A stretch of DNA of 64,000 nt. It comes from Poseidonibacter lekithochrous (lineage in GTDB: Bacteria > Campylobacterota > Campylobacteria > Campylobacterales > Arcobacteraceae). The position numbers were made by a program, and so were the translations under genes. The DNA is taken from assembly GCF_018861145.1 (NCBI RefSeq), contig NZ_JAHKQT010000004.1, positions 1-64,000 on the forward strand, written 5' to 3'. Each line of letters starts with the position of its first letter. Position 1 is the stretch's first letter. This document shows positions 23,579-24,949 of the stretch, one piece after another. The notes under the pieces were generated by a model. That model was not told the DNA's origin, did no database searches, and saw only the letters and a program-made list of their open reading frames with translations.

Positions 23579-24418
23579 CTATATTTTGATTAGTTCTTTA
23601 TATTCATTATTATTAAATCTTTCTTCAAACCATGAAGGAAGTATTTGAGTTAAGAAGGGGTAAGTTATAAGCATATTACAAAAAACATCATATACACAAG
23701 AGGCATCTTCACTTGCATATTTAACTTGAATATCAGTTAGATTAACATTTTCCCAGTTTGATCTAGAAATTCTTTTAGATTTTTGTAAGTTTTTATTTAA
23801 AAAAAGTAATACACTCTTTTTTGCTCCAATATCATTTGGATATGCCATTTTTGATTTAAACAGCGAACCAAAATCAATACAACATCTAGGTCTTATCCTA
23901 AATTCTTGATATAAAGCCGAGTTATCACCATTTAAACCAATCCCTACTTTTACAATATTTCTATTCGTTAATATATTTAGTAAGGGTTTTATATTTCTAA
24001 TTAAATGAACTTGGAATAAGTAACAATCTGTTGCATTAGACATTTGAATAATTGCTATTGGACTTGGAGGAACACCTTTTTGAAAAATAGGTTTTTGTTC
24101 TGTATCAAATCCAAGAATTTTTGAAGTATTTAATTCTAGAACTGCTTCATTCAGACCTTTTTCATCCTTAATAACATGAACTTTTTTATTTTTCATTGTG
24201 TAGCTAGGTAAGTTTTCATCTGTATAATTATTGATATTATCTAGTTTTGTAATAAAATCAATTAACTTATATGTTTTCTCATCAAAAGATTCTGACACAT
24301 TTTCAAAAGCATTTGAAACAGCTTTTTCTATTTCTTCACCAGCTTTAGTACCACAAATTTTCTTTATTAAATCTACTCTACTCTTGTTTATAAATGACTC
24401 TGATATATCTATCTTCAA
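23579..24418 (-). CDS. RNase D-like DEDDy 3'-5' exonuclease domain protein
   Basis: A 279-residue protein. The N-terminal ~85 residues are not recognised; the rest is a DEDDy exonuclease domain with ExoI GFDTEQKP (D and E), ExoII KVGIGLNGDNSALY and ExoIII YASEDASCVYDVF (Tyr and Asp). There is no HRDC domain, so it is shorter than true RNase D (about 370-390). It would trim 3' ends of structured RNA or DNA. Start is TTG at 24418 with ggaga 7 bp upstream. The RNA candidate upstream on the same strand ends 113 bp before this start. Confidence 0.8.
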   Translation of the reverse strand: MKIDISESFINKSRVDLIKKICGTKAGEEIEKAVSNAFENVSESFDEKTYKLIDFITKLDNINNYTDENLPSYTMKNKKVHVIKDEKGLNEAVLELNTSKILGFDTEQKPIFQKGVPPSPIAIIQMSNATDCYLFQVHLIRNIKPLLNILTNRNIVKVGIGLNGDNSALYQEFRIRPRCCIDFGSLFKSKMAYPNDIGAKKSVLLFLNKNLQKSKRISRSNWENVNLTDIQVKYASEDASCVYDVFCNMLITYPFLTQILPSWFEERFNNNEYKELIKI

Positions 24419-24532
24419 AAAATCTCCAAAATTTATACTTTAATGCAATAATATCTAAAACTATTTAAATAACACGCTTAAGTTCTATATTTATTAACTA
24501 GTTTTTAAAAGTCTAAATAAATGGGGCATTAA

Positions 24533-24569
24533 AAAAGGGAGATTAACATATTTAGTCAATCTCCCTTTT
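24533..24569 (-). terminator. Intrinsic terminator of the small RNA
   Basis: A perfect 12-bp stem, aaaagggagatt / aatctccctttt, with a 13-nt loop. In the minus direction it is followed by T residues (ctttttt to 24531) and is a canonical rho-independent terminator; in the plus direction the T-run is shorter. Confidence 0.8.
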
Positions 24570-24652
24570 ATTCATACTCTAGTTAAATAAGACATTTATT
24601 TAACTTATCACTACTACAGTGATTTAAATTATTATATTAGTTTGTAACAATA

Positions 24653-24676
24653 CTAAAAATGTGAAACCTTCGTCAT
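24653..24676 (-). CDS. Possible leader peptide MTKVSHF
   Basis: ATG at 24676, seven codons and TAG, preceded by a near-perfect SD ggaggt (24681-24686) at 4-nt spacing, in a short predicted RNA. The strength of the SD relative to the ORF length is the main evidence. No run of a single amino acid that would suggest classical attenuation is present. Confidence 0.4.
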   Translation of the reverse strand: MTKVSHF

Positions 24677-24705
24677 TTGCACCTCCGTATTATTTGTGTA
24701 TTGAC

Positions 24706-24711
24706 ATTATA
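24706..24711 (-). promoter_or_regulatory. Extended -10 promoter of the small RNA
   Basis: The minus strand reads TGTTATAAT, a full match to the TGn-TATAAT extended -10. The start would be about 7 nt further, near 24699. Confidence 0.55.
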
Positions 24712-24778
24712 ACATCTTTTTAAATTAAAGTTAGCTTAAATTTAGTATTGTTTTTATAAAATACTAAAAAGGATTATA

Positions 24779-24949
24779 ATGTTTTTAAATACTATTAAAA
24801 AAATATTTACAAAAGAAGAGGTATTTGAATGTATCATTTGGGATGGAAAAACAATGAAATATCAAGATCTAACTCAAAAACAAATCGATGAAATAAACAA
24901 TAACCCAGAATGCAAAGACTGGACAATTACACTAAAAGATGAGTGTTAA
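24779..24949 (+). CDS. Small hypothetical protein (56 aa)
   Basis: An ORF of 56 codons with ATG at 24779, strong SD aaaagga at 6-nt spacing, and an upstream tataaaat box. The product starts with an amphipathic segment (MFLNTIKKIF), then WDGKTMKYQDLT and a C-terminal CKDWTITLKDEC. It contains two Trp and three Cys and has no known domain. It fills the gap before aat and has no alternative frame of comparable quality, so it is likely a real small gene. Confidence 0.65.
   Translation: MFLNTIKKIFTKEEVFECIIWDGKTMKYQDLTQKQIDEINNNPECKDWTITLKDEC

Follow-up and report, generated by a model that had tools for sequence, protein, structure and literature searches.

A predicted small RNA gene of the Arcobacter group with a closed ribosome-binding hairpin, a drifting mini-ORF and a putative CosR/HsrA-type site

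Bacterial RNAs that combine a ribosome-binding site (RBS), a short open reading frame (ORF) and hairpins belong to several described classes. Dual-function small RNAs, such as SgrS, are stand-alone, terminated transcripts with a translatable short ORF, and their peptide is longer than the one considered here and itself functional. Leader-peptide attenuators present a Shine-Dalgarno sequence (SD), a short ORF, hairpins and a terminator in that order. In the CsrA titrators, i.e., CsrB/RsmZ-type RNAs and the flaA leader, GGA motifs lie over the RBS within a hairpin (PMC4894983). In the Campylobacterota, CncR1 (HPnc2630) is a 213-nt small RNA of the Hfq-free host Helicobacter pylori, where the essential orphan regulator HP1043/HsrA controls it directly (PMC8322730, PMC5253667). 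This regulator activates in vitro. Its consensus, TTTAAG-N5-TTTAAG, lies between -42 and -26 in the hp1227 promoter, its targets include numerous translation genes as well as the small RNA cncR1, and its regulon rises in H. pylori upon translation arrest (PMC5253667, PMC8345958). A homologue of CosR has been named in Arcobacter butzleri (PMC3139631). Finally, in the analysis of Arcobacter sp. L by Stav et al. (2019), most Arcobacter motifs were not given names (PMC6429828).

The locus described here lies in a window of 64,000 nucleotides (the whole stretch of DNA that was analysed) from Poseidonibacter lekithochrous. On its minus strand, a complete predicted transcription unit can be read along 24740-24531, consisting of promoter, SD, mini-ORF, hairpins and terminator (Table 1). 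As judged from this layout and from its relatives, the segment is a real small RNA gene, apparently uncatalogued and common to one bacterial family. The main reading, to which we give a probability of about 0.5, is that of a free-standing regulatory RNA activated by CosR/HsrA, in which the closed ribosome-binding hairpin is the active part.

The first-pass annotation had described an extended -10, an SD, an ORF, two hairpins, a terminator and a 113-bp gap, and all of them were found in place; the gap separates the terminator from an RNase D-like ORF on the same strand. A further hairpin (H1), which engages the SD in base pairs with the end of the ORF, had been overlooked. A generic promoter and terminator scan of the window flagged neither the promoter of the RNA, because it has no sigma70 -35, nor its terminator, because the stem extends into the T tract. 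Both are predicted here from conservation and not from that scan: the T tract follows a C-rich stem end in 30 of 30 loci. The combined pattern of repeat and -10 has a single occurrence in the genome at up to three mismatches. Divergently from the RNA, a 56-aa ORF (24779-24949, plus strand) is kept in eight loci of the genus (cluster C11), and it has no match among Pfam, NCBIfam or PADLOC models.

Table 1. Elements of the predicted RNA gene and the adjacent gene, in positions of the window.
Feature	Position	Strand	Basis or remark
Predicted small RNA, ~169 nt	24531..24699	minus	start predicted at 24699; fold, homologues, covariation
TTTAAG-CTAAC-TTTAAT direct repeat, putative CosR/HP1043(HsrA)-type activator site	24724..24740	minus	-41 to -25 from predicted start
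Extended -10 TGTTATAAT	24706..24714	minus	conserved in alignment A2
Hairpin H1, SD paired inside	24646..24694; closing arms 24694-24687 and 24653-24646	minus	fold, alignments
Shine-Dalgarno GGAGGTG	24680..24686	minus	sequence; near-invariant in homologues
Start codon ATG of mini-ORF	24676-24674	minus	sequence
Seven-codon ORF MTKVSHF-stop	24653..24676	minus	sequence; residues without purifying selection
Hairpin H2, 6 bp	24607..24623	minus	fold and covariation
Hairpin H3, 10 bp	24581..24605	minus	fold and covariation
Intrinsic terminator, six T	24531..24569	minus	sequence, fold and conserved position
RNase D-like gene, 3'-5' exonuclease domain	23579..24418; TTG start 24418	minus	PF01612; outside the RNA system

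Homologues are frequent among close relatives. Within the genus, blastn matched nine of nine other genomes (E <= 1e-18), and other genera of the family matched too. Two covariance models were built: (i) R1, from alignment A3 (30 members), which matched 53 of the 104 family genomes; and (ii) R2, from alignment A4 (63 rows, one spurious), with which the family search proposed in the first-pass annotation gave homologues in 56 of the 104 genomes and in 12 of the 20 genera, including three carriers missed by R1 (G110, G022 and G048). Two copies were present in nine of the 56 carriers. The remaining 48 genomes gave no match with R2, absences that are lower bounds because filtering is strict in searches of more than 40 genomes; the RNA would therefore be dispensable in the family. 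Wider samples of the order (248 genomes, R1) and the phylum (397 genomes, R2) yielded 5 and 21 matches, respectively, all inside the same family. As far as searched, the RNA family appears to be confined to one family of the Campylobacterota, the Arcobacter group.

Pattern searches covered further genomes. In a species-level genome collection, 22 contigs showed a core pattern that misses 12-codon ORF forms, and 21 of them are titled Arcobacter-group, Campylobacteraceae/Campylobacterales or Epsilonproteobacteria. A Sinomicrobium contig (L118) was considered as a wider host and rejected as chance, since the remaining elements were absent by eye; a phage origin was also rejected, as the core pattern occurred in 0 viral contigs. 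In the 397 phylum genomes, a looser pattern produced scattered matches beyond the family, mostly with one mismatch, and inside the family it picked up L191, a true divergent member. As to the alignments, A4 used 63 matches from 64 loci, L092 and L095 not being recovered, and its spurious row is a weak second R1 match of 27 bits (L083, 4642-4751), probably due to chance, in a locus that also holds one true member. The 63-locus set behind the promoter-site, folding and ORF counts given below comes from related genomes, without L191 and L201, and kinship among sequences inflates all counts.

The structure of the RNA is supported by both folding energy and covariation. The folding energy of the 174-nt RNA is -43.3 kcal/mol versus -25.2 (sd 3.6) for 200 dinucleotide shuffles (z -5.1), none of which was as stable. 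Alignment A3 was not fitted to the structure and is the fairer covariation test: its score is 0.299 versus 0.170 when shuffled and 0.04-0.11 in slid controls, and it contains 66 cells with two-sided pair changes, where shuffling leaves 26.9 and sliding no more than 24. These changes sit in H2 and H3 (7 of 10 pairs in H3); H1 has one-sided changes only (two-sided in 0 of 8 pairs). On A4, whose pair counts lean toward the structure because it was fitted to it, two-sided changes affect 21 of the 24 pairs, among them 10 of 10 in H3 and 5 of 8 in H1, where 91.6% of cells are paired. H2 covaries on both alignments. The compensatory base changes that the first-pass annotation expected in homologues are, in short, present, and strong in two hairpins.

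Upstream, the direct repeat of the window matches the HP1043/HsrA consensus at 11 of 12 positions. Of the 63 loci, 39 have a site with at least 10 of 12 matches, a score reached by 2.9% of shuffles, and the distance from this site to the -10 is almost always 11-12 bp; the other 24 promoters stay below that score. The 21-bp CosR motif (PMC3139631) resembles the repeat less than the HP1043 consensus does. A PmrA-box reading of the repeat was replaced by HP1043, which is better for spacing and host. The same genome encodes an orthologue of the regulator (protein at L154:1441-2151, minus strand), with best PDB matches to 8uvx (E 1e-114) and 2hqr (E 2e-84), which we take to be CosR and HP1043, respectively. 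Transcription of the RNA, itself inferred, is probably activated by this orthologue at the putative site. The source genome (3.0 Mb) contains 42 matches to Trans_reg_C (OmpR-type), which is a rich set for Campylobacterota, so the site may really be bound by another regulator. By eye, the promoter of second copies in the genus is instead of the TTGCAT/TACAAT type; the copies at L039, L038 and L042 (G003:C11, G001:C17 and G006:C29) combine a consensus-like -35, TTGCAT, with a poorer CosR-like repeat, which suggests that second copies are paralogues under different control.

The conserved part of the RNA is its 5' 50 nt, and within the 63 loci the signals for translation initiation hardly vary: the GGAGG positions show 98-100% identity, the SD-start spacing is 5 nt in 59 loci and 4 nt in 4, and 60 loci start with ATG, the other 3 with TTG. 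Where the SD has moved by one base (L091, L095 and L099), it reads AGGAGG with a spacing of 4 nt; one lineage (L074) has GGGGG at this place. These data bear on the best-surviving rival, to which we allow a real but minor chance: a plain trans-acting small RNA whose conserved 5' region pairs with mRNAs, the SD and start codon acting as seed with no role for translation. The concentration of conservation in that region and the drift of the ORF residues agree with it, and Hfq-independent small RNAs are known in Campylobacterota (PMC8322730). Nevertheless, a seed needs no ideal SD-start spacing, and yet the shifted SDs became AGGAGG at 4 nt and the altered starts became TTG, which is also a start codon.

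The ORF keeps its shortness and loses its sequence. Its length is 6 codons in 1 locus, 7 in 41, 12 in 17, 13 in 2 and 15 in 2; given the 17 loci with 12 codons and the 4 with 13 or 15, seven codons are not obligatory. The ORF is still short after a one-codon deletion (L043), and still of seven codons after a frame shift (L044 and L045) and in three divergent genomes where the 3' arm of H1 lies further downstream (G017, G022 and G048). Seven codons are also read in the two divergent members outside the set (L191 and L201, the latter translated by eye). The peptides include MTKVSHF, MIEVIHS, MTRRTFT, MTGILHW and 12-codon forms. Purifying selection on the residues was looked for in the 63 loci and none was seen: counting single steps from the consensus codon, synonymous and non-synonymous changes stand at 7:38 in seven-codon ORFs (10:43 possible) and at 5:38 in 12-codon ORFs (22:74 possible). 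Since the residues drift, the peptide is improbable as the relevant product, and a peptide function was rejected. The earlier suggestion of a dual-function small RNA is retained as regards an independent small RNA with conserved initiation signals and abandoned as regards a functional peptide; likewise, conservation of the leader ORF holds for SD, start and shortness, and not for residues.

When the 63 loci are folded singly, the SD has a mean unpaired probability of 0.14 versus 0.35 with shuffled flanks, and the start codon 0.52 versus 0.41, so the conserved property is burial of the SD and not of the start codon. Three minor rivals can be weighed with these results. That the RNA is a CsrA sponge, titrating CsrA with the GGA of its SD and those present in the ORFs of many members, is improbable. 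CsrA of Campylobacter jejuni binds (C/A)A(A/T)GGA, mostly AAGGA in hairpin loops, its GGA motifs frequently overlap the SD (PMC4894983), and 27 of the 63 ORFs contain a second GGA; however, 36 of the 63, that of the window included, have no GGA after the start codon, the GGA of the SD is paired instead of loop-exposed, and the GGGGG lineage has lost it. Several loop-exposed GGA motifs were looked for in the 63 loci and not found, which disfavours the sponge. Even less credit is due to a mini-mRNA whose product is the seven-residue peptide: every member read combines a short ORF with excellent signals for initiation, but residues vary freely (MTKVSHF versus MTGILHW, or the 12-codon forms) and a peptide needs no large conserved 3' RNA structure. 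A decoy titrating 30S subunits through a perfect SD is just as hard to credit. GGAGGUG is complementary to the anti-SD and the SD is nearly invariant, both in favour of a decoy; a decoy should expose its SD, yet here it is buried.

The neighbourhood of the RNA is variable. Among 62 loci, 42 have a convergent first downstream ORF (at least 80 aa) and 19 a co-directional one, and 1 shows none in the examined stretch. These ORFs fall into 22 kinds, so the segment does not always precede the same gene, a point raised in the first-pass annotation, and the RNase D-like gene is the first in 5 loci. In consequence, the proposal that the RNA is a cis leader, an attenuator of that gene, is largely refuted and very improbable, in spite of the close same-strand gene in the window and of possible terminator read-through. 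In these loci, the RNA is independent of any one downstream gene, with no constant gene in cis.

In other genera, the RNA is often found beside a convergent groEL gene (read from translated sequence), and in g10 it lies between the groEL gene and a histidine kinase gene. In g10 and in G026 of g18, the sensor kinase gene ends ~55 nt before the RNA; where the stretch shows it, a response regulator gene accompanies the kinase, both being closest to heavy-metal types. The kinase (E <= 1e-60) occurs in 50 of the 104 family genomes, a set that differs from the RNA carriers: the source genome and G002 have the RNA and the kinase was not found, and G104 and G018 have the kinase and no RNA match. The link was thus taken as positional, and control by the adjacent two-component system was rejected. 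In G117 and G118 (L126 and L127), another element, alike in both and rich in inverted repeats, replaces the RNA just past the kinase gene.

As regards the free-standing RNA with H1 as its active part, the locus has the predicted attributes of a trans-acting small RNA gene: (i) its own promoter; (ii) an intrinsic terminator; (iii) a conserved structure; and (iv) no fixed neighbour. Hfq was not found in the source genome, and the RNA probably acts in trans without it. With Hfq not found, the neighbours varying and the peptide drifting, what is left as conserved would be the closed ribosome-binding hairpin. The CosR/HP1043(HsrA) orthologue would bind the promoter and set the level of the RNA, and the functional core would be H1, i.e., a near-perfect RBS, a start codon and the mini-ORF, held shut by two sets of base pairs, one between the SD and the U-rich end of the ORF, the other between the flanking arms. 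To take the SD, a ribosome (or a factor that binds the RBS) would have to open H1; if translation followed, the short ORF would make the ribosome leave at once, whatever the peptide made. We infer that this gating step, the opening and closing of H1, sets the stability of the RNA or frees the 3' strand of H1 to pair with targets. The other modules (H2, H3 and the terminator) would provide stability and spacing. Most likely, the input or output of the RNA runs through H1, via ribosome binding. A more specific version is offered tentatively, as a doubtful one: a peptide-indifferent translation sensor, CosR/HsrA-driven, in which ribosome occupancy of the buried RBS and throw-away mini-ORF toggles inert and active forms. 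If true, the RNA would read out ribosome availability under an essential regulator whose regulon rises in H. pylori when translation is arrested.

With respect to novelty, Rfam 15 found only a tRNA in the window, and the best sub-threshold matches of the RNA are far below gathering scores. The literature search found no description of it, the unnamed Arcobacter motifs of PMC6429828 being outside the comparison. The Rfam result and covariation uphold the claim of a compact structured RNA outside known families. By Rfam and literature it would be a new RNA family; an earlier unnamed sighting is possible, and the RNA may be among those motifs or be HRC-4. In any case, bacteria with almost no described small RNAs found in the literature gain with it an RNA family that is well bounded and supported by covariation; the family is linked to an essential, poorly understood regulator and displays an unusual evolutionary signature, with translation signals and ORF shortness kept and the peptide drifting. 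It thereby becomes directly testable whether ribosome binding to a mini-ORF can act as a regulatory input on its own in Hfq-free bacteria.

Among the described systems, the motifs of Stav et al. (2019) are also intergenic candidates for structured elements, and the majority of them are restricted to Arcobacter (PMC6429828). With CncR1 it shares a Campylobacterota host without Hfq and the putative regulator. CncR1 differs in being transcribed from the cagP promoter region and in targeting fliK, and the accessible parts of its descriptions mention no conserved SD/mini-ORF hairpin; no kinship is claimed (PMC8322730, PMC5253667). Unlike CsrB/RsmZ-type RNAs and the flaA leader, the RNA has few GGA motifs and that of its SD is paired; unlike leader-peptide attenuators, which follow the same order of elements, it has no constant downstream gene. 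Finally, it is stand-alone and terminated, with a translatable short ORF, as SgrS-type RNAs are, but here the residues drift while the SD, the start codon and the shortness of the ORF persist.
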